Shown: positions 7,216 through 16,560 of the stretch, one piece after another
How positions within the stretch are numbered: the stretch's first letter is position 1
Layout: every line of letters starts with the position of its first letter
Source: Protaetiibacter mangrovi
Lineage (GTDB): Bacteria; Actinomycetota; Actinomycetes; Actinomycetales; Microbacteriaceae
Length of the DNA stretch: 34,341 nt
Reading direction: 5' to 3'
Assembly (NCBI RefSeq): GCF_024752305.1
Contig: NZ_JANTHX010000005.1
Coordinates: 517,521-551,861, forward strand
Notes under the pieces: model-generated
Database searches by the model: none
Seen by the model: only the letters and a program-made list of their open reading frames with translations
What the model was told of the DNA's origin: nothing
Program-made: the position numbers and the translations under genes

Positions 7216-8052
7216 ATGCAGGAGGCGTCCGTCGAGGTCGATCAGGCCGTGGCGGACGACGCCCCGCCGGAGGCGGGATTCCGCCTCACCTTGGCGAACT
7301 TCGACGGTCCCTTCGACCTGCTGTTGTCGCTCATCACCAAGCACGAGCTCGACATCACCGAGGTCTCGCTCTCGAAGGTCACCGACGAGTTCATCTCCTA
7401 CCTGCGGGGGCTCGACGGCCCGGAGGAGCTCGACCAGGCGAGCGAGTTCCTCGTCGTCGCGGCCACCCTGCTCGACCTCAAGGTCGCGGGGCTCCTGCCG
7501 CAGGGCGAGCTCGTCGACGCCGAGGACGTGGCGCTGCTCGAGGCGCGCGACCTGCTGTTCGCGCGCCTGCTGCAGTACCGCGCGTTCAAGGAGGCCGCCC
7601 GCTGGTTCGAGGCCGGGTTCGAGGCGGAGTCGGGGCGGCATCCGCGGTCGGTGCGTCTCGAGGAGAAGTACCGGAGGCAGACGCCGGAGCTGGTCTGGAC
7701 GCTCAGCCTGCACGACTTCGCGGCGCTCGCCGCGCTGGCGATGGCTCCGCGCGAGATCGCGGTGGTCGGCCTCGACCACCTGCACGCGCCGCTCGTGAGC
7801 ATCCGCGAGCAGGCGGCGGTCGTGGTCACGATGTTGCGAGCGGGCCAGGCGACGACCTTCCGCGAGCTGATCGCGGGCGCCGCGCAACGCGGCGTCGTGG
7901 TGGCGCGCTTCCTCGCGGTGCTCGAGCTGTACCGTCACGCCGCCATCTCCTTCGAGCAGTTCGAGCCGCTCGGCGAGATCACCCTGCGCTGGACGGCCGC
8001 GCACTGGAACGACGACCAACTGGCGACCCTGGGGGCCGACTATGACCGATGA
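7216..8052 (+). CDS. scpA: Segregation and condensation protein A (kleisin)
   Basis: Kleisin subunit of the SMC-ScpAB condensin, which compacts and segregates the chromosome. The 278-residue product has the diagnostic N-terminal segment FDGPFDLLLSLITKHELDITEVSLSKVTDEF (near residues 32-60) and a C-terminal winged-helix region contacting the SMC head. The start ATG at 7216 follows the -10-like box; the frame extends further upstream, but only as read-through of the parA 3' end. It overlaps scpB by 11 nt, matching the 1:2 complex these proteins form. Confidence 0.93.
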   Translation: MQEASVEVDQAVADDAPPEAGFRLTLANFDGPFDLLLSLITKHELDITEVSLSKVTDEFISYLRGLDGPEELDQASEFLVVAATLLDLKVAGLLPQGELVDAEDVALLEARDLLFARLLQYRAFKEAARWFEAGFEAESGRHPRSVRLEEKYRRQTPELVWTLSLHDFAALAALAMAPREIAVVGLDHLHAPLVSIREQAAVVVTMLRAGQATTFRELIAGAAQRGVVVARFLAVLELYRHAAISFEQFEPLGEITLRWTAAHWNDDQLATLGADYDR

Positions 8053-8623
8053 CGTGCACGACGACGGTGCGGCGCTCGAGCGACGCCTCGAGGCGATCAT
8101 GCTCGTGGCCGACGAGCCGCTTCCGCTGGTGACGCTGGCGACCGCGCTGGGTGCACCGGTGCCCGCGGTGCGGCAGTCGCTCGAGCGTCTCGTCTCCGAC
8201 TACGACGGCGAGATCGGCGGGCCGCGTCGCGGCTTCGAGCTGCGGGAGGTGGGCGGAGGGTGGCGCCTGTACGTACGCCCCGAGCACGACGAGGTCGTGC
8301 GCGACTTCGTGCTCACCCAGAGCCCCACCCGCCTCTCGCAGGCGGCGCTCGAGACGCTCGCGGTGATCGCCTACCGGCAGCCGATCGCCCGCAGCTCGAT
8401 CGCCGCGATCCGCGCGGTCAACGTCGACTCGGTCGTGCGCACGCTGCTCGGCCGGGGCCTCATCACCGAGGCGTTCACGGATGCCGAGACCGGTGCCATC
8501 CACTACGAGACCACCCCGCTGCTGCTGACCCAGCTCGGCATCAACTCGCTCGACGAGCTACCGCCGATCTCCCCGCTGCTGCCGGACGGGGTCGAGGGGT
8601 TCGAGGAGCTCGGCGCCCGATGA
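8042..8623 (+). CDS. scpB: Segregation and condensation protein B
   Basis: Winged-helix partner of ScpA in the condensin complex. The 193-residue protein has two winged-helix domains. The typical family stretches LEAIMLVADEPLPLVTLA (near residue 16) and LSQAALETLAVIAYRQPIARS followed by AIRAVNVDSVVRTLLGRGLI are both present. Translation probably starts at ATG 8042 inside the end of scpA. The stop overlaps the rluB ATG (ATGA arrangement), so scpA-scpB-rluB-tyrA-cmk appears to form one translationally coupled run. Confidence 0.93.
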   Translation: MTDDVHDDGAALERRLEAIMLVADEPLPLVTLATALGAPVPAVRQSLERLVSDYDGEIGGPRRGFELREVGGGWRLYVRPEHDEVVRDFVLTQSPTRLSQAALETLAVIAYRQPIARSSIAAIRAVNVDSVVRTLLGRGLITEAFTDAETGAIHYETTPLLLTQLGINSLDELPPISPLLPDGVEGFEELGAR

Positions 8624-9408
8624 TCGACGAGCAGCCGGAGGGCGAGCGACTCCAGAAGGTGCTCGCGGCGGCGGGCGTGGCGTCGAGGCGCGTCGTGGAG
8701 CAGTACATCGTCGCCGGGCGCATCCGTGTCAACGGTCGCGTGGTCACGGAGCTCGGAACCCGGATCGACCCCGAGAACGATCGGGTCGAGGTCGACGGCA
8801 CACCCGTGCAGCTCGACGCCGACAAGCGCTACCTCATGCTCAACAAGCCCAAGGGCGTCGTGAGCACGATGTCGGACGAGAACGGGCGCCCCGACCTGGC
8901 CCGCTACGCCGAGCAGGCGGGGGAGCGGGTCTACAACGTGGGCCGGCTGGACGCCGAGACGACGGGCCTGCTCGTGCTCACGAACGACGGCGAGCTCGCC
9001 CACGTGCTCGCGCACCCCTCCTACGGGATCGAGAAGACCTACCTCGCGACGGTGCGCGGTGTCGTGAAGCCCGAGGCGCTGCGGCGGCTCCGGGCCGGAG
9101 TCGACCTCGACGACGGGCCGATCGCCGCCGACCGGGTGCGCGTCATCGGCGAGCCATCCGGGGGGCGCACGATCGTCGAGGTCACGCTGCACTCCGGCCG
9201 CAACCGCATCGTGCGCCGGATGCTCGCCGAGGTGGGCCACCCCGTGATCGAGCTCGTGCGGCGCCAGTTCGGCCCCCTGCACCTCGGCTCGCTCGGGGCG
9301 GGGCGGATGCGCGACCTCACTAAGGTGGAGGTCGGCGCGCTGCTGGCCCTCGCCCGCGACGCCGCAGCCGACGCCGCACCGCCGACCACGAAGCAGGAAC
9401 CCCGATGA
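8620..9408 (+). CDS. rluB: 23S rRNA pseudouridine synthase, RluB type
   Basis: RsuA/RluB-family pseudouridine synthase of 262 residues, modifying large-subunit rRNA. An N-terminal S4 RNA-binding domain (about 8-55, [16 protein letters not shown]) is followed by the catalytic domain with [17 protein letters not shown], where D111 is the catalytic aspartate. The conserved [19 protein letters not shown] motif lies toward the C-terminus. The ATG overlaps the scpB stop by 4 nt and the gene overlaps tyrA by 4 nt. Position scpB-rluB-cmk matches Rv1710-Rv1712. Confidence 0.92.
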
Positions 9409-10511
9409 CCGACCCGCACCCGGGCGACCACCGTCTCGCGGAGCAGGTGCGCATCGTCGGCTCCGGACTGCTCGGCGCGAGCATCGGCCTCGGTCTCTCG
9501 GCGAAGGGCGTCGACGTCATCGTCGACGACGCCTCACCGTCGACCCGTTCGCTCGCGATCGCCTACGGCGCCGGCCGTGCGCCCGCCGCGGGCGATGCGC
9601 CGGGCCTGATCGTGGTCGCCGTGCCCCCGGATGTCGTGGCCGAGGTGGTCGCCGCCGAGCTCGAGCGCTTCCCCGAGGCGCTCGTGACCGACGTCGCGAG
9701 CGTGAAGCTCTTCCCGCTCGAGCAGCTGCGCGCCCGCGGGGCGGACCTGTCGCGCTACCTCGGCTCGCATCCGATGGCGGGCCGGGAGCGCGGCGGCGCC
9801 GTGTCGGCCCGCGCCGACCTGTTCGTGGGCCGGCCCTGGATCCTGGCGGGACACGACCGCATCAGCTACCGCCGCGCCGCCGCCGTCGAGCACATGGCGC
9901 TCGACCTCGGCGCCGTCCCGATCCAGTTGGATGCCGCCGAACACGACCGGAGCGTCGCCCTGGTCTCGCACGCGCCCCAACTCGTGGCGAGCCTGCTCGC
10001 GAGCCGGCTGCGCGACGGCTCCGCCTCCGCGCTCGGCCTCGCCGGGCAGGGGGTGCGCGACACCACCCGCATCGCCGGCAGCAATCCCGAGCTCTGGGTG
10101 CAGATCCTCGGCGCGAACGCGGCCGAGATCGCCGCGGTGCTGAAGCCGCTGCGCGACGAGCTCGATGTCGTGATCGCGGCCCTCGACGACCCGGAGGCGC
10201 CCGCCTCGCGGCGGGCGATCGCCGAGGCGCTCGTCGCCGGCAACGACGGCGTCGCGCGTATCCCGGGCAAGCACGGCCAGGACAAGCGCTACACCTCGCT
10301 CGTCGTCAAGATCGACGACCGTCCGGGCCAGCTCGCGAGGCTGCTCACCGAGATCGGCGAGGAGGGCGTGAACATGGAGGACCTGCGCCTCGAGCACTCG
10401 CCCGAGACGAAGGTCGGCTTCGCCGAGATCTCGGTGCTGCCGGAGGCCGCGCATCCGCTCGCCGCCGCCCTCGAACAGCGCGGGTGGACCCTCATGGAGG
10501 CCGAGCGGTGA
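9405..10511 (+). CDS. tyrA: Prephenate dehydrogenase
   Basis: NAD(P)-dependent prephenate dehydrogenase, converting prephenate to 4-hydroxyphenylpyruvate for tyrosine synthesis. The 368-residue product has an N-terminal Rossmann fold with GSGLLG at 19-24, the family signature GSHPMAGRE near residue 122, and a C-terminal ACT domain from about residue 300 ([20 protein letters not shown]), which suggests feedback control by an aromatic amino acid. The gene is wedged between rluB and cmk with 4-nt and 1-nt overlaps; M. tuberculosis lacks tyrA at this place. Confidence 0.93.
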
Positions 10512-11185
10512 TGTGCGCAGCAGTCGTCGTCGCCGTCGACGGCCCGGCGGGCTCGGGCAAGTCGAGTGTGAGCAAGGCCGCCTCGCGTGCGCTCGGCTAC
10601 GCCTTCCTCGACACGGGCGCCGCCTATCGCGCGCTCACCTGGCAGGCGCTCGAGTCCGGCATCGACACGGCCGACGCCGCGGCCATCGTGGCGCTGCTCG
10701 ACGGCTTCGACTACCGCACGACGGTCACCGACGAGGGAACCCGCGTCACGGTGGGCGACGCCGACGTGACCGACGCCATCCGCGAACCGCGCATCTCCGC
10801 CGTGGTGAGCGACATCGCGCGCGTCCCCGAGGTACGGCTCGCCCTCAACGACGCGTTCCGGCGGATGATCCGCGAGACGGATGCGCCGGGCATCGTCGTC
10901 GAGGGCCGCGACATCACGACGGTCGTCGCCCCGGACGCCGCCGTGCGCATCCTCCTGACGGCCGACGAAGCGGTTAGAATTGCCAGGCGATCGGCCGAGC
11001 TCGCGCCCGGCACCGCCTCCACGGCGGGGCAGCTGCGCGAGCGGGATGCGCGGGACGCCCAGGTGGTCGACTTCCTGACCGCGGCGCCCGGCGTCGTGAC
11101 GATCGACTCCACCGAGCTCGACTTCGACCAGACCGTCCAGGCGGTCGTCGGGCTCGTGAATGACGAGCAGGAAAAAAGGTTATAA
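10511..11185 (+). CDS. cmk: Cytidylate kinase
   Basis: CMP/dCMP kinase, transferring phosphate from ATP to CMP. The 224-residue protein begins with the P-loop GPAGSGKSS (11-19) and continues with the conserved [18 protein letters not shown] and [10 protein letters not shown] motifs. ATG 10511 forms TGATG with the tyrA stop; GTG 10508 is a possible alternative. The last dozen codons become AT-rich, including a run of six A, directly next to the low-GC satD-like cassette, so the very C-terminus may have been rewritten by the insertion. In relatives der normally follows directly. Confidence 0.93.
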
Positions 11186-11206
11186 CCCCGGGATATAAGC
11201 TAAAAT
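11178..11206 (+). promoter_or_regulatory. Promoter/operator of the SatD-like cassette
   Basis: TAAAAT (11201-11206) is a near-consensus -10 ending 6 nt before the ATG at 11213. At 11178-11187, in the -35 position, lies the perfect palindrome GGTTATAACC, overlapping the cmk stop codon. The stretch is the most AT-rich in this half of the window. Since the first gene product has a C-terminal helix-turn-helix, autoregulation through this palindrome is plausible but inferred. Confidence 0.5.
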
Positions 11207-11212
11207 CTCGGT

Positions 11213-11851
11213 ATGGCACTGAATACGGTGGCAATCATCGCGGACATCGTGCGCTCTCGGGAGATCGGAAGCCGGGATGCCGCGCAGCTCATCTTGGAAG
11301 AAGCCTTTCGTCGTGTACGCGACCTCGTAGACCTGGAGGAGCCGTTCCGGCCCACGGTTGGTGACGAGTTTCAGGCCGTGGCAGGGGATCTAGGTGACGC
11401 CATATGGGTAACGATGGCCGCTCGACTCACCTTTCCCGCGGGGGTGGAATGCCGTTTCGGGCTTGGACGAGGAGATACCCACCTGGTCACTTCGAGTGAG
11501 CGGGATGGAATTCGAGATGGCTCAGCCTGGTGGCGTGCCCGAGAAGCAATAGAAACGGCGCACCGCGAGCAGAGCAATGGGCGGTCATCGCTGCGCACAA
11601 GTTTCGCATCCGATGACATCAGCGAAACGAATGGTGTCAACGCCTACTTGACCATCCGCGACCACGTTATCTCGAGGATGAAGAAGCAGGAGCGCTCAAT
11701 TGCCTTCGGCCGCATGTCGGGAGCGACCCAAAGCGCGATCGCCCGTGCACACGAAGTCTCCCAGTCGGCCGTTTCCCAGAGTCTGCAGCGGTCTGGGGGA
11801 GCCGCCCTAATCGATTCGGCCACGTTGTGGAAGGGAAGGCCAGTTGGTTGA
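11213..11851 (+). CDS. SatD-family protein with C-terminal helix-turn-helix
   Basis: A 212-residue protein matching the SatD family (named after satD of the Streptococcus mutans sat operon; biochemical role unknown to me). Visible motifs are AIIADIVRSR with D11, FRPTVGDEFQ with G50-D51-E52, CRFGLGRGD at 80-88, and a conserved WWRAREAIE stretch. The C-terminal part (about 160-195) is a helix-turn-helix, TQSAIARAHEVSQSAVSQS, suggesting DNA binding. The spacing D11 / GDE50-52 / RxGLxxG81-87 resembles class III nucleotide cyclases; that is my inference. The codons are clearly less GC-biased than in cmk or der, a sign of transfer. It overlaps the next gene by 8 nt. Confidence 0.8.
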   Translation: MALNTVAIIADIVRSREIGSRDAAQLILEEAFRRVRDLVDLEEPFRPTVGDEFQAVAGDLGDAIWVTMAARLTFPAGVECRFGLGRGDTHLVTSSERDGIRDGSAWWRAREAIETAHREQSNGRSSLRTSFASDDISETNGVNAYLTIRDHVISRMKKQERSIAFGRMSGATQSAIARAHEVSQSAVSQSLQRSGGAALIDSATLWKGRPVG

Positions 11852-12665
11852 GGCAGCGTCGCTGTTGCTGACCGTTGCTCTGGCGGACCTGGCGCGGGCG
11901 TTCGCCCGCACCGTCACGTGGTGTTGGATTCTCGGACTAGCTAGCGCAATGCTTGCATCGCTCGGATTGTGGGCGATGCTGGGGTACTCCTGGGTGGTTG
12001 CCGCCCTTGTTCTCGTGATCGCTGCCAGCTGGGTCCTACTCGTAGGAGTCAATCCATCAGTCGGAGCTACTCGGATCTGGCCAGCGCTCGTCCTCACCGT
12101 TCTCGTTGTAGTGCTTGCTACCGGGTATGCGTCGGAGGCTCACTTGAATGCTCAGATCCTGGCTTTGTATGAGAGCACTCCGATCGCGGGAGCAGGCGTC
12201 AGCTGGCGAGTAGCACTTGCGGCGGCCAGTGTGACTCTCTTCATAACACGAAGCGCCAACTTGATCGTCAGGGGCGCGATCGTCTCGCGGGCCGCACAGG
12301 CGGAGTCGAGCAGTCCGGACGAATCATCCAGGATCTCGCCGATCCGACCACGTTGGCGAGTGGCGTGGAAGAACGTCGAGCTTGCAACGATCGAACGCGC
12401 CCAAGAGAGTCCTCGCGCACACAATGAGCTAGCAGGCGGGCGTGTGATCGGGCCTATCGAGCGGATACTTCTCGTCGCGCTGATGCTGAGCGGCAATGCC
12501 GTCATTGTCGCCGCGTTGGTCGCAGCCAAGGGAGTAGTGCGCTTCCCCGAAATATCTGCCGACCGAGACGGGGGCTTGAACGCCGAGACATTCCTCGTTG
12601 GGAGTCTCACGAGCTGGACTATCGCTGCTGCAGCGGCGGCGCTCATCTGGGCGGCGGGACCCTAA
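11844..12665 (+). CDS. Polytopic membrane protein paired with the SatD-like gene
   Basis: A 273-residue integral membrane protein starting at TTG, with a strong Shine-Dalgarno-like GGAAGGGAAGG directly upstream and an 8-nt overlap with the SatD-like gene. Hydrophobic segments lie near residues 25-45, 50-68, 78-95, 120-135, 207-230 and 248-270, separated by a charged cytoplasmic-looking region at 150-200. The C-terminal block GRVIGPIERILLVALMLSGN...AAKGVVRF...LVGSLTSWTIA resembles the C-terminal part of DUF3307 membrane proteins, which are often encoded beside SatD-family genes (from memory). Low-GC codon use is like its partner's. Function unknown; an effector or transporter controlled by the partner is a guess. 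Confidence 0.75.
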   Translation: MVEAASLLLTVALADLARAFARTVTWCWILGLASAMLASLGLWAMLGYSWVVAALVLVIAASWVLLVGVNPSVGATRIWPALVLTVLVVVLATGYASEAHLNAQILALYESTPIAGAGVSWRVALAAASVTLFITRSANLIVRGAIVSRAAQAESSSPDESSRISPIRPRWRVAWKNVELATIERAQESPRAHNELAGGRVIGPIERILLVALMLSGNAVIVAALVAAKGVVRFPEISADRDGGLNAETFLVGSLTSWTIAAAAAALIWAAGP

Positions 12666-12685
12666 GGAGCGTACGCAATGCTCCT
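12665..12685 (+). terminator. Weak hairpin after the membrane protein gene
   Basis: AGGAGC / GCTCCT arms around a 9-nt loop start within the stop codon region. There is no U-tract, so termination is doubtful. It could mark the cassette border. Confidence 0.25.
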
Positions 12686-12741
12686 GGCAGAATGGAAAGC
12701 CGTGCGTGGCAACGAACTTCGCGCCTTGAAGGAGAACCAGC

Positions 12742-14307
12742 ATGTCAACTGATGTCCCGCACGAACCTGACGCCCCCCTCGAGGCGGAGTTCGCCGCCGA
12801 CAACACCGACTCGGACTATGCGGGCGAGGTCGACCCCGGCCTCGCCGACCGCCTGGCCGAGCTCGACGACGAGGTGGCCGAGCAGCGCGCCGCCTCGCTG
12901 CGCGCCGGCCTCTCCGACTACGAGCTCGACGAGGACGACCTCGACGTGCTCGAGGCCGCCGAGGCGGGACCCGACGGCATCACCTACCTGCCCGCGCTCC
13001 CCGTGCTGGCGATCGTCGGCCGCCCGAACGTGGGCAAGTCGGCGCTCGTGAACCGGATCCTCGGTCGCCGCGAGGCGGTCGTCGAGGACGTGCCGGGCGT
13101 CACGCGCGACCGCGTCTCGTACAAGTCCGAGTGGCTCGGTCGCCGCTTCACCGTGGTCGACACGGGGGGCTGGGAGCCGGATGCCGCGGGCATCAACGCC
13201 TCGGTCGCCGCCCAGGCGGAGGTCGCCGTCGACCTCGCCGACGCCGTGCTGTTCGTCGTCGACATCAACGTCGGCGCGACCGCGACCGACGAGCACGTCG
13301 TGCGGATGCTGCGCAACGCGAAGAAGCCCGTGATCCTGGTCGCGAACAAGGCCGACGACGCCATCAAGGACCCGCAGGCCGCCGAGCTGTGGAGCCTGGG
13401 CCTCGGCGAGCCGTGGCCCGTGTCCGCGCTGCACGGCCGCGGGGTCGCGGATCTGCTCGACCACGTGATGACGGTGCTGCCCCCGGTCTCCGCGGTCGCC
13501 AAGCAGGAGATCGGCGGGCCGCGCCGCGTGGCGATCCTCGGGCGCCCGAACGTCGGCAAGAGCTCGCTGCTCAACAAGGCCGCCGGCGAGGAGCGCGTCG
13601 TCGTGAACGAGCTCGCCGGCACGACCCGCGACCCGGTCGACGAGCAGATCGAGCTCGGCGGCCGCATCTGGACCTTCGTCGACACCGCCGGCATCCGCAA
13701 GCGCGTGCACCTCCAGCAGGGCGCGGACTTCTACGCCTCGCTGCGCACCGCCGCGGCCCTCGAGAAGGCCGAGGTGGCCGTCGTGGTGCTCGACGTCACC
13801 GAGCCGATCAGCGTGCAGGATCTGCGCATCATCGACCTGGTGCTCGAGTCGGGGCGGGCGCTCGTGCTCGCCTACAACAAGTGGGATCTGCTCGACGACG
13901 ACCGCCGGCGGTACCTCGAGCGCGAGATCGAGCAGGACCTCGCGCACGTGACGTGGGCGCCGCGCGTGAACATCTCGGCGCGCACCGGCCGGCACCTCGA
14001 GAAGCTCGTGCCCGCGCTCGAGACCGCCCTCGAGAGCTGGGACACCCGCATCCCCACCGGCAAGTTCAATGCGCTGCTCGCCGAGCTCACCGCGGAGCAC
14101 CCGCACCCGGTGCGCGGCGGCAAGCAGCCCCGCATCCTGTTCGGCACCCAGGCGTCGACGCGTCCGCCGACGTTCGTGCTGTTCACGACCGGATTCCTCG
14201 ACCCGCAGTACCGCCGCTTCATCCAGCGCCGGCTGCGCGAGGTGTACGGCTTCGAGGGCACCCCGATCGTGGTCAATATGCGCGTGAGGGAGAAGCGGAA
14301 GCGCTGA
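12742..14307 (+). CDS. der: Ribosome-associated GTPase Der (EngA)
   Basis: Double-Era-like GTPase for 50S subunit assembly, 521 residues. An acidic N-terminal extension of about 85 residues, usual in Actinobacteria, precedes two tandem GTPase domains: G1 motifs GRPNVGKS at 93-100 and again in the second domain ([14 protein letters not shown]), DTGGW and DTAGI switch motifs, NKAD and NKWD. A KH-like domain follows ([23 protein letters not shown]). The ATG has a good Shine-Dalgarno (AAGGAG, 12729-12734). The stop TGA sits in the loop of a perfect 13-bp hairpin, and the last eight codons are repeated 126 bp downstream. Confidence 0.96.
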
Positions 14308-14322
14308 ACGCGCTTCCGCTTC
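14292..14322 (+). terminator. Hairpin enclosing the der stop codon
   Basis: Arms 14292-14304 and 14310-14322 are perfectly complementary (13 bp) around the loop TGAAC, which holds the der stop codon. No U-tract follows. It is the first of three consecutive hairpins between der and the convergent exporter gene. Confidence 0.6.
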
Positions 14323-14323
14323 C

Positions 14324-14378
14324 GGGAGGGCCATTTCTGGCCCTCCCGCCTCACGCGCCGCGGCCGTCCCGGCCGCGG
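14324..14378. repeat. Two further perfect hairpins between der and the MFS gene
   Basis: GGGAGGGCCA-TTTC-TGGCCCTCCC (14324-14347) is a perfect 10-bp stem and CCGCGGCCG-TCC-CGGCCGCGG (14358-14378) a perfect 9-bp stem. Outside the first, CGCGTGAGG (14281-14289) is mirrored by CCTCACGCG (14349-14357), making a nested inverted structure. It probably acts as a bidirectional terminator for the two convergent genes and may be a REP-like element. Confidence 0.65.
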
Positions 14379-14409
14379 TCCGCCACGGAGGCGCGCAGCG
14401 GCGAGGGCG

Positions 14410-14439
14410 GTGAGGGAGAAGCGGAAGCGCTGAACGCGC
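14410..14439 (+). repeat. 30-nt duplicate of the der 3' end
   Basis: Bases 14410-14439 are identical to 14284-14313, i.e. the final codons of der (VREKRKR, stop) plus six bases. The offset of 126 bp keeps the der reading frame. The copy lacks the right arm of the der hairpin and abuts the stop codon of the minus-strand exporter gene. Confidence 0.85.
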
Positions 14440-14440
14440 G

Positions 14441-15910
14441 CTAGGCGGCCAGCTCGCCCTCGGCCACCTCGGCGTCGGCGATGCTCGGCACCGGTCGCTC
14501 GCGCCCGGGGAGCAGCAGGCTCGCGAGCAGGGCGAGCACGGCGACGCCCGTGGCGACCCAGAACGCGGCGTGGAAGGCATCCGCGGCGCCCGTGGTGTCG
14601 GTGACCCCGTCGAGCAGGGTCGTCAGCACGACGGCGAGGATGGCGGTGCCGAAGGCCCCGCCGACCTGCTGCGCGATGCGGGTGATCATGGTGACCTGCG
14701 GGATCTCGTCGTGGGCGAGCCCGGTCATCGAGACGGTCATGAGGGGGATCAGCACCGTCCCGAGCCCGAGGCCCCGCACCACGAGCACGGCCGAGAGCCA
14801 CACGTTCGAGGTGCCGGCGTCGGCGAGGGCGAAGGGGATCGTGCCGAGCGCCATGAGCGCGAATCCGATCATGGTGAGCGCGCGTGCGCCGATCCGCTCG
14901 AGCAGCACCCCCGCGATCGGGCGTGCTGCGAGCGAACCCACCCCCTGGGGGATGAGCAGCAGGGCCGCCGTCAGCACGGTCTCGCCGCGCAGGGTCTGCC
15001 AGTAGAGCGGCAGCAGCAGCATGGCGCCGTAGAGCGCCGCCCCGGAGAGCCACATGACGGTGGACGCGCTCGCGACCGTGCGGCGGCCGAGCATGCGCAG
15101 CTGCACGAGCGCCCTCTCGCGTCGGGCGAGCGACCAGAAGACGAACGCGACCGCGAGGGCGATGCCGACGAGCAGCGGCACCAGCACCTCGGCGCTGCCG
15201 ACGCCGTCGCCGGTCTCGATGTCGGAGAGGCCGAGCAGGATGAGGGCGAGGCCGGGCGCGAGCAGCATCAGCCCCACGATGTCGAGCTTCGGGCGGGTGA
15301 TGCGGCTGCTGTCGTCGGGCAGCAGCCACGCGGCGAGCGCGATGCCGACGATCACGATCGGCACGTTCACGAGGAACAGCCACTGCCAGCTGAGGTCGTT
15401 CAGGATGAGGCCACCGACGACGGGTCCGAGGATGGGACCGAGGGCGATCGGCACCGTGACGACGGCCATCATCCGACCCATGCCCCGGGTGCGCCCGCCG
15501 GCCGCCTGTACGGCCAGCGATTGCATGAGCGGGAACATGATTCCGCCGCCGAGTCCTTGGAGGACGCGGAAGACGATGAGGCTGGGGGCGTCCCAGGCGA
15601 GCGAGCAGAGCACCGATCCGAGCAGGAACAGGGCCAGGGCGGCGATCCACAGACGCTTGCCGCCCACGCGGGCCTGAGCCCATCCGGTGAGCGGGATGGC
15701 GACGGCGAGGGCGAGCAGGTACGCGGTCGAGACCCACTGGATCGTCGAGACCGGCACGTCGAATTGCCGGGCGAGGGTGTCGATGGCGATGGCCACGATC
15801 GTGGAGTCGAGGATGGCGGCGAATCCGCCGATGATGAGCACCCAGACGGTCCGCAGCACGGCGCGCGGGATGCGGGTGTCGGAGGGGACGGGTGCGGGGG
15901 AGTCGGTCAT
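14441..15910 (-). CDS. DHA2-type multidrug MFS exporter
   Basis: Major facilitator superfamily drug:H+ antiporter with about 14 transmembrane helices, 489 residues. Family motifs are visible: LDSTIVAIAIDTLARQF in helix 1, WVSTAYLLALAVAIPLTGW followed by RVGGKRLW (motif A), VFRVLQGLGGGIMFPLMQSL (motif B) and IALGPILGPVVGGLILNDLSWQWLFLVNVPI (motif C of exporters). It resembles EmrB/QacA proteins of the plasma membrane; the substrate cannot be read from sequence. It is divergent from a TetR gene, with a shared operator in the 68-bp gap, so substrate-induced derepression is likely. The stop abuts the der-tail duplication. Confidence 0.9.
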   Translation of the reverse strand: MTDSPAPVPSDTRIPRAVLRTVWVLIIGGFAAILDSTIVAIAIDTLARQFDVPVSTIQWVSTAYLLALAVAIPLTGWAQARVGGKRLWIAALALFLLGSVLCSLAWDAPSLIVFRVLQGLGGGIMFPLMQSLAVQAAGGRTRGMGRMMAVVTVPIALGPILGPVVGGLILNDLSWQWLFLVNVPIVIVGIALAAWLLPDDSSRITRPKLDIVGLMLLAPGLALILLGLSDIETGDGVGSAEVLVPLLVGIALAVAFVFWSLARRERALVQLRMLGRRTVASASTVMWLSGAALYGAMLLLPLYWQTLRGETVLTAALLLIPQGVGSLAARPIAGVLLERIGARALTMIGFALMALGTIPFALADAGTSNVWLSAVLVVRGLGLGTVLIPLMTVSMTGLAHDEIPQVTMITRIAQQVGGAFGTAILAVVLTTLLDGVTDTTGAADAFHAAFWVATGVAVLALLASLLLPGRERPVPSIADAEVAEGELAA

Positions 15911-15926
15911 GGGGTCCGTTCCAAAT

Positions 15927-15946
15927 AAGAGACGTTAGTGTCTCTT
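15927..15946. promoter_or_regulatory. TetR operator palindrome
   Basis: AAGAGAC-N6-GTCTCTT is a perfect 7-bp inverted repeat between the divergent exporter and tetR genes. It lies inside the likely exporter promoter (TTCACA-17-TTATTT on the minus strand) and overlaps the start of the tetR -35 box, so one bound dimer could repress both. Confidence 0.75.
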
Positions 15947-15972
15947 GTGAAGATACGCCGAGGCGATAAGAT
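15945..15972 (+). promoter_or_regulatory. Promoter of the tetR-family gene
   Basis: TTGTGA (15945-15950), a 16-bp spacer and TAAGAT (15967-15972) form a good sigma-70-type promoter. The -10 ends 6 nt before the GTG start, implying a leaderless mRNA. Confidence 0.65.
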
Positions 15973-15978
15973 ACGCAA

Positions 15979-16560
15979 GTGACTCTTGAAAAGGCGACCC
16001 GACGCCGCGGCGCGGAACTCGAAGACGCCATCCTCGACGCCGTCTGGGACGAGATCGCCGAGAAGGGCTACGGCGGTCTCACCTACGAGGCCGTGGCCAC
16101 GCGCGCCCGCACCAGCCGCGCCGTGCTGTATCGGCGGTGGCCGAGCCGCGAGGAGCTCGTGCTCGCCGCCATCCGCCGCCTCGGCGAGCGCACCCCCACG
16201 ATCTCGCCCGACACCGGCAGCCTGCGGGAGGACATGCTCGAGCTGCTCCGGTACTCCAACGCCAATCGGCTCGGCACCTGGGTCGTGCTGAGCGTGCAGC
16301 TCGCCGGGTTCTACGCCGAGACGGGCATCACGCCCGCCGAGCTGCGGTCGCAGCTGCTCGGCGAGCGGCCGAGCCTCGTGCCGCTCATCGTCGCGCGCGC
16401 GGTCGCGCGCGGCGAGGCGCGCGCCGATCTCACCGATCGCGCCATGCGCTCCGCCTTCGACCTGTTCCGCTCCGAGGCGATCATGCGACTCGGTCCCGTG
16501 CCGGACGAGGAGATCGTCGCGATCGTCGACGAGGTGTTCCTGCCGCTCGTGCGCCCCTGA
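15979..16560 (+). CDS. TetR-family transcriptional regulator
   Basis: A 193-residue TetR-type repressor. The N-terminal helix-turn-helix is clear: ILDAVWDEIAEKGYGGLTYEAVATRARTSRAVLYRRWPSREEL (about 18-60). The C-terminal ligand/dimerisation domain is of the TetR_C type found in regulators of drug exporters. The start is GTG, preceded by the promoter and not by a Shine-Dalgarno sequence. It is divergent from the DHA2 exporter and most likely represses it and itself through the shared palindrome. The gene ends 17 bp before the convergent CotH-fusion gene. Confidence 0.92.
   Translation: MTLEKATRRRGAELEDAILDAVWDEIAEKGYGGLTYEAVATRARTSRAVLYRRWPSREELVLAAIRRLGERTPTISPDTGSLREDMLELLRYSNANRLGTWVVLSVQLAGFYAETGITPAELRSQLLGERPSLVPLIVARAVARGEARADLTDRAMRSAFDLFRSEAIMRLGPVPDEEIVAIVDEVFLPLVRP

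Follow-up and report, generated by a model that had tools for sequence, protein, structure and literature searches.

Toxin-antitoxin operons and CapW/BrxR-type regulators represent self-regulated two-gene modules, and here we describe a two-gene insert, composed of a SatD-family gene and a gene for a membrane protein, in a 34,341-nucleotide stretch of the Protaetiibacter mangrovi genome (contig NZ_JANTHX010000005.1, positions 517,521 to 551,861 of the forward strand). This whole stretch is called the window below and corresponds to C16:517521-551861 of a 2.98-Mb assembly labelled G000. Streptococcal satD has a puzzling record: in the accessible text of a transposon meta-analysis of Streptococcus pyogenes, it is an accessory gene (178 of 249 genomes) that is yet essential by transposon sequencing, the only accessory gene scored in this way (PMC11323703). 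The accessible parts of other reports list S. suis satD as a DNA-binding protein (PMC12005413), and the gene is labelled as one of acid tolerance in streptococci and Fusobacterium (PMC11323703, PMC10326533). In the window, the insert (11186-12741) consists of two overlapping genes between cmk and der, at the place where the preliminary description of this DNA, made from its letters, had put them. The streptococcal sat operon, which we take to be ylxM-ffh-satC-satD-satE, presumably has a promoter just before satD, and so does the satD of the window. We lean towards the view that SatD acts as a nucleotide-sensing autorepressor of its membrane partner, which would probably be harmful or costly when unregulated.

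Results

SatD combines a predicted cyclase fold with a helix-turn-helix

The first gene of the insert was recognized by the Pfam profile of SatD (PF16264) with 66.7 bits against a cut-off of 29 (E-value 3e-18), and its AlphaFold model contains a helix-turn-helix, both as had been proposed from the sequence. The SatD alignment takes in 78 of 81 proteins, all of which match PF16264 at E ≤ 0.01. The model (predicted local distance difference test score, pLDDT, 95) displays a class III nucleotidyl-cyclase fold joined to the helix-turn-helix. D11, at the end of strand 1, and D51, in the turn between strands 2 and 3, correspond to the metal-site aspartates, their place in the fold being read from secondary structure rather than from a superposition of side chains, and both are invariant in the 78 sequences. 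D11 and D51-E52 are also kept in 18 of 18 rows of an alignment of distant SatD proteins (window included, L124 and L138 excluded), and the helix arginine R110, likewise invariant in the 78, is retained in 15 of these 18 rows. W106, four residues before R110, is Trp in all 78 proteins, while the residue four positions before D51 (P47 in the window) is Pro or Ala in most SatD rows displayed; we take these two to be the positions of the catalytic (transition-state) Asn and of the base-selecting Lys of class III enzymes, respectively. Foldseek matched the model to a cUMP synthase (7r65, E 1.8e-3) and to Rv2242 (9f80, E 1.4e-3, rank 33, TM-score 0.35, rmsd 14.3), the latter presumably a PucR/CdaR-type regulator with a GGDEF-like domain. 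The helix-turn-helix of 9 of the 78 proteins resembles KorA/TrfB, and that of 10-12 resembles sigma-70 region 4. The cyclase domain probably binds a nucleotide with Mg2+.

SatD and the membrane partner occur together across genomes

SatD was detected in 71 of 299 sampled genomes of the family (Microbacteriaceae) at E ≤ 0.001, 60 of them above the curated cut-off, and some of the weaker matches are of the core type described below. At 29 of 31 family loci (L002-L032), the next gene encodes a protein with at least four predicted membrane segments. The two genes, which the preliminary description had presented as a coupled pair, do co-occur elsewhere: among 80 SatD loci from named genomes (the best 80 of 443, all actinobacterial by title), the partner was found at 74, where it overlaps satD by 4 bases in 61 cases, by 1 base in 9 and by 7 bases in 4, and a strict C-terminal motif is present in 61 of the 74 partners. 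A wider sample of the phylum contained SatD in 17 of 246 genomes, with the partner motif at 9 of the 16 loci other than that of the window (L123-L138). Seen from the side of the partner, 143 of 146 partner-matching places in family genomes, counted among the matches listed and with four extra pieces of the same genes excluded, lie at most 1.8 kb from a SatD or core-SatD match. The distance matrices of SatD and partner correlate with an r of 0.87 (71 pairs), a value reached by 0 of 1000 permutations.

The pair is also seen on mobile elements and in other lineages. Plasmids of Halorientalis and Haloplanus carry genes annotated as 'SatD family protein' and 'DUF3307 domain-containing protein' with a 4-base overlap, an Arthrobacter conjugative plasmid carries SatD followed, with the same overlap, by a gene of unnamed product, and in a Fusobacterium record, inspected by eye, SatD and a DUF3307-type partner are 10 bases apart. 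This last record (NZ_CP084075.1, L153; 2.1 Mb) is filed as a plasmid and has a chromosome-like size.

A putative operator at the promoter of the insert

A near-consensus promoter had been ascribed to the insert, but a scan for TTGACA/TATAAT found none; instead, satD is preceded by a leaderless-type -10 element with a palindrome directly upstream (cf. Table 1), a layout conserved across genera. This was examined in 81 upstream regions (80 loci and the window), in which SatD starts were chosen by rule and are doubtful in some (e.g. L065, L068, L079 and L098). Of the 81 SatD genes, 68 have a TANNNT box whose end lies 5-8 bases upstream of the start, versus 203 of 1233 control genes (Fisher's test, 5e-37). 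Beside this box, 41 of 68 loci (window included) carry the palindrome GCTTATA-N9-TATAAGC or a variant of it with 6-7 of 7 complementary positions, as searched with spacers of 8-10 bases and an end 11-17 bases from the start, while the same degree of complementarity was met in 94 of the 1233 control genes and in 37 of the 203 controls with a TANNNT box. When 67 loci were read in one fixed register, 256 of 469 positions paired, whereas re-dealt right arms averaged 217 and 0 of 2000 re-dealings reached 256; with one locus per genus label (31 loci), 1 of 2000 re-dealings reached the observed value. The paired fraction is 0.55 in the fixed register and 0.24-0.43 with one arm shifted. This excess indicates that the two arms vary jointly, and the variants include CTTGTA/TACAAG (Actinomyces) and CTGATA/TATCAG (L073 and L120). 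Furthermore, a comparison of 19 loci by hand showed a tendency of the recognition helix to track the half-site (Q[SGA]AVSQ with CTTATA, QQAVS with CTTGTA and QPSVSK with GCATA).

In the own genome (2.98 Mb), a search for operator-like sites with a 9-base spacer and up to 3 mismatches gave a single site, the one at satD, against 12 matches per strand for a reversed control pattern; spacers of 7-9 bases without mismatch also gave one site. Since the putative operator is unique in the genome, SatD most likely regulates only its own operon. By eye, half-sites were also noticed upstream of haloarchaeal SatD (L140, L141 and L142) and of core SatD (L155-L161), at several of these loci in plus-minus-plus order (e.g. 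TTCGGT, ACCGAA, TTCGGT), which suggests that archaeal and core SatD genes share this operator plan.

The conserved part of the membrane partner is its C-terminal domain

The partner matched nothing in Pfam, NCBIfam or PADLOC at E ≤ 1 and had, among solved structures, neither a sequence relative nor a convincing fold match. Its AF2 model (pLDDT 86.3) is mostly helical, with at most about 43 consecutive residues lying outside long helices. The conserved positions cluster in the final 75 residues: the alignment, which holds 67 of 75 possible partners (window and 74 others), shows G198, G199, R200, G203, E206, R207, K229, R233, P235, A247, E248, L251, G253 and S257 to be invariant. The C-terminus aligns with the C-terminal part of the Halorientalis protein annotated as DUF3307 (hhalign probability 98.7%), and the domain was also recognized by eye in the Fusobacterium and Natronosalvus partners and found in the core paralogue. 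Thus, of the DUF3307-like C-terminus announced in the preliminary description, the homology to the C-terminus of a DUF3307-annotated haloarchaeal protein stands, but the label is wrong, because the DUF3307 domain proper is N-terminal in that protein, at residues 15-115. The domain itself (PF11750) was not detected in the window partner at E ≤ 1, nor among the families of its 67 relatives at E ≤ 0.01, nor in any of 99 relative genomes. The Pfam families matched by the 67 partners include none that binds cyclic nucleotides and no transporter family in more than one partner.

Short partners with little beyond the C-terminal domain still lie beside SatD, namely L142:6602-7051 (Natronosalvus plasmid, 149 residues) and L129:1013-1426 (138 residues). 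Since the domain forms much of these two proteins, it looks like the working part of the partner. In Homoserinibacter gongjuensis (L043, about 10639-11490), the partner frame is broken before the conserved C-terminus, through either a real change or an assembly error.

The insert is variable at the cmk-der junction

The junction was compared in nine genomes of the genus. The insert is present in two of them (G000, which is the own genome, and G001), at cmk-der in both, whereas the other seven are free of it, with cmk ending 11 bases before der in five and overlapping the der start in two. The split of cmk and der noted in the preliminary description is confirmed for these two genomes. The insert-free junctions centre on a common string, CAGGACACGACATG, in place of the der leader of the insert. 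In the two insert-bearing genomes the der leader differs, with a ribosome-binding site of its own and a possible -10 element; in the seven others der follows cmk directly. The insert edges look alike in the window and in H. gongjuensis, with GATATAAGCTAAAAT upstream of satD and CAGAAT upstream of der in both; since these edges look homologous, the insert probably goes back to a single insertion here. The two copies have nevertheless strongly diverged, SatD being 58% identical versus 78% for cmk, 90% for tyrA and 92-94% for der, and their GC contents are 0.616 (window) and 0.731 (H. gongjuensis). A tree of five flanking proteins placed both insert-bearing species within one five-genome clade (99/98), and a tree with the two as sisters was rejected (p-value of the AU test 0.02). 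The insert may thus have been gained once and later lost, or its alleles may have been transferred between species. Neither cmk, der nor tyrA was found in the 3.3-3.6 kb examined at each of the other 29 family loci.

The composition of the insert is foreign to its surroundings. Its GC content of about 0.61 contrasts with 0.70-0.76 in the regions 8000-10999 and 12750-15749, the last interval (15500-15999) standing at 0.66, and the value for the gene pair is 0.616 versus 0.723 across the remainder of the window. GC at third codon positions (GC3) is 0.656 and 0.674 for the two insert genes, below all 23 other called genes of the window, whose minimum is 0.747 (a mis-called gene) and whose mean is 0.923 for genes longer than 300 bases. 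A simple gene caller trained on the window, which is approximate and placed wrong-strand frames over scpB and rluB, omitted both insert genes, consistent with foreign codon use. The weaker GC bias noted earlier was thus recovered, and the earlier picture of an acquired cassette agrees with its foreign composition and with its variation among the nine genomes. Low GC is no general property of the pair, since only 8 of 73 copies, window included, fall more than 0.03 below their host (partners shorter than 190 residues, L060 and L064, excluded). The features of the locus are collected in Table 1.

Table 1. Features at and around the insert (positions in the window)
Feature	Position	Strand	Remarks
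cmk	10484-11185	+	Left flank; last codons unlike those of insert-free genomes
Putative operator palindrome	11178-11200	+	GGTTATA-N9-TATAAGC; overlaps cmk stop (11183-11185); directly 5' of -10
Leaderless-type -10	11201-11206	+	TAAAAT; ends 6 bases before SatD ATG
satD-like gene	11213-11851	+	212 residues; cyclase fold 1-156, helix-turn-helix 158-206; putative autorepressor
Membrane partner	11844-12665	+	273 residues; TTG start; 8-base overlap with satD; several transmembrane helices
Partner C-terminal membrane domain	12429-12653	+	GGRxIGPxER...AAKGxVRFPEIS...AExFLVGSLxSW
Insert right edge	12666-12741	+	CAGAAT 12688-12693 (possible -10), AAGGAG 12729-12734; read from sequence
der	12742-14307	+	Right flank

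A second, core pair lies in the same genome

A search with a partner protein revealed a divergent SatD-partner pair with a 4-base overlap on the minus strand at G000:C16:505046-506232 (L155:3547-4733), which is 11.3 kb to the left of the window and has a 16S rRNA gene at a distance of about 2.8 kb. Its first gene aligned with the SatD profile with an hhalign probability of 97.6%, and its second with the C-terminal domain of the partner with 95.8%. The two SatD proteins of the genome are 28% identical (54 of 192 residues) and have D11, D51-E52 and R110 in common. The core pair has a GC content of 0.746, and 147 of the 299 sampled family genomes, including all six genus genomes of that sample, have SatD of this type. 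Given this second pair in the same genome and in about half of the sampled family genomes, the window insert is, by sequence comparison, an extra, mobile version of a module already in the lineage.

The neighbours of the pair show no clear enrichment of defence genes

The neighbours of the 81 loci form 13 synteny groups, of which 10 are confined to a single genus, and 21 loci are ungrouped. A Pfam family was assigned to 14 of 18 immediate neighbours, in most cases one of metabolism, transport or regulation; among them are peroxiredoxin, acetyl-CoA synthetase, PfkB kinase, thymidine kinase, lactate permease, dihydroxy-acid dehydratase, a MerR regulator, transporters, a UvrD-type helicase and others. 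A thymidine kinase gene stands upstream of the pair in L099:9194-9865 (by Pfam), and seven other Actinomyces loci share this upstream family by BLAST. The occurrence of nucleotide kinases upstream of the pair (thymidine kinase in Actinomyces, cmk in the window) may be a coincidence.

The PADLOC library showed no clear difference in defence genes between 134 genes near the pair and 134 far from it (taken from 170 and 174 collected, respectively, at 34 loci with an approximate gene caller), matches at E ≤ 1e-10 being few and mostly generic in both sets, among the matches listed (in one table 25 of 40 families). One near gene, at most 3 kb from a SatD pair, matched PDC-S48, a candidate defence family, at 1.9e-151; it is not among the 10 genes that were re-scanned. 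At the sensitivity used, phage records yielded no relatives of the window SatD or of the Halorientalis SatD and partner, and viral contigs no relatives of the pair. The accessible text of one report describes a Ralstonia jumbo phage that encodes a 134-residue DUF3307 protein (PMC8504454). The enrichment of such pairs in defence islands that had been envisaged is not clearly seen at these 34 loci, and the idea that the insert is a small defence island loses ground on this result, on the failure to find viral relatives at that sensitivity, on the synteny within genera and on the second pair in 147 of 299 family genomes.

Discussion

An autoregulated, nucleotide-sensing repressor-effector module agrees with the overlapping layout, the single local promoter palindrome and the usual membrane partner, and this is how we would read the insert; the underlying two-gene module would be old, and the insert its accessory form that moves horizontally. 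SatD would be a transcription factor in which a cyclase-type domain with two metal-site aspartates is fused to a helix-turn-helix; by binding the palindrome over its own leaderless promoter, it would repress, rather than activate, its own operon. A change in a nucleotide signal would then make SatD release the DNA and allow production of the partner, which would be translated from the satD mRNA, its start overlapping the satD end, and act as the effector. A gene that can be absent and yet cannot be broken, as S. pyogenes satD appears from the accessible text (PMC11323703), shows the pattern expected of a repressor or an antitoxin.

Three other explanations were weighed against autorepression. 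SatD might, much like an efflux-pump repressor, respond to a ligand and control an ordinary transporter or envelope protein that is useful under some stress rather than harmful, and the promoter palindrome, the synteny within genera, the mostly ordinary neighbours, the presence of a copy in 147 of the 299 family genomes sampled and the acid-tolerance label of satD in the accessible literature (PMC11323703, PMC10326533) would all suit such a role. However, no transporter family recurs among the 67 partners, the partner has no convincing fold match, and the accessory-yet-essential satD of S. pyogenes, as far as the available text goes, is hard to square with a dispensable transporter (PMC11323703), so that we regard this explanation as rather doubtful. 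The cyclase fold, with both metal aspartates and R110 invariant in 78 proteins, and the match to the cUMP synthase raise another option, namely a Pycsar-like signalling pair in which SatD is an active nucleotidyl cyclase or a GTP-hydrolysing relative whose product acts on the partner, the helix-turn-helix only setting expression. It is unlikely, because all 78 proteins have Trp at what we take to be the catalytic Asn position and most rows displayed have Pro or Ala at that of the base-selecting Lys, R110 is kept in only 15 of 18 distant rows, and the partners lack a cyclic-nucleotide-binding Pfam family and, in the model, any non-helical stretch longer than about 43 residues. The spacing of the aspartates speaks for it, since in the accessible text these are 44 residues apart in PycC enzymes (D102/D146 and D62/D106; PMC11224242) versus 40 in SatD.

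Improbable, finally, is an anti-phage defence cassette in an island. A sensor next to a membrane effector is a usual layout of defence systems, and the presence/absence variation, the foreign GC in the window, the occurrence on plasmids, the strong PDC-S48 match of 1 in 134 near neighbours and the phage DUF3307 protein (PMC8504454, accessible text) are in its favour; yet defence genes are not clearly enriched near the pair, phage records and viral contigs gave no relatives of the pair at the sensitivity used, GC is host-like in most copies, and the same genome holds a second, divergent pair.

Several observations weigh against SatD as an autorepressor of this partner. The window palindrome has one mismatched position and lies 2 bases nearer to the start than at most loci, and a palindrome search without a fixed register gives only a weak excess. 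The classes of operator and helix mostly coincide with clades, and at L073 and L120, whose operators read CTGATA, the helix is QSAVSQ as in the CTTATA class; because of this, the match between helix and operator counts as support, short of proof. The partner was undetectable at 5 of 80 SatD loci (L065, L068, L090, L098 and L101; at L089 the motif lies in another frame), at 2 of 31 family loci and at 7 of 16 distant loci, and its frame is broken in H. gongjuensis although SatD is intact there. A partner beside S. pyogenes satD could not be confirmed, and a non-polar satD mutant of S. mutans (Kremer, 2001) was reportedly viable.

In the parts of the literature accessible to our search, to which most subscription journals were closed, there is no description of the pair, its fold or its operator. 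For SatD, which carries the labels of acid tolerance or DNA binding in that literature, the analysis supplies a fold prediction, a probable operator and a usual partner, together with a role that can be tested. The pair has turned up in haloarchaea and a Fusobacterium as well as in Actinobacteria, and the own genome has it twice. As a wider and more tentative proposal, SatD and its partner could constitute a hitherto unrecognised regulatory system that exists in bacteria and archaea in a core and a mobile form; in it, a self-limiting cyclase-fold repressor would keep a harmful membrane domain (IGxxE...AAK...R...G[TS]LxS) in check until a nucleotide signal changes. Such a system, if real, would explain how satD can be both accessory and essential in S. 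pyogenes; repression of a harmful partner by SatD would resolve that puzzle and add a transcription factor with a cyclase domain.

Compared with known systems, the window SatD belongs to the SatD family by profile score, though its gene sits in a stand-alone two-gene insert, unlike that of the streptococcal sat locus. With DUF3307 proteins (PF11750), the partner shares a homologous C-terminal membrane domain, whereas their N-terminal DUF3307 domain was not detected in it. SatD has the fold, the two metal-site aspartates and the helix arginine of class III nucleotidyl cyclases, and differs from them by its fusion to a helix-turn-helix and by replacements at what we take to be the catalytic Asn and base-selecting Lys positions. 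The accessible text on PycC enzymes indicates that base-selecting residues vary among these as well (PMC11224242). Pycsar (PycC and PycTM) likewise places a small cyclase-fold protein beside a membrane protein, but no cyclic-nucleotide-binding domain was detected in the window partner, and SatD has a DNA-binding domain of its own; no PADLOC family matched either window protein at E ≤ 1, the PycC profile content of that library being unchecked. PucR/CdaR-type regulators also join a cyclase- or GGDEF-like sensor domain to a helix-turn-helix, and SatD is set apart from them by the metal aspartates, the palindrome at its own promoter and the single membrane partner. In comparison with toxin-antitoxin and CapW/BrxR-type modules, the partner here is a polytopic membrane protein of conjectural toxicity and the sensor is cyclase-like, whereas a putative autoregulator in first place, an overlapping second gene, an own putative operator and an accessory distribution are shared.

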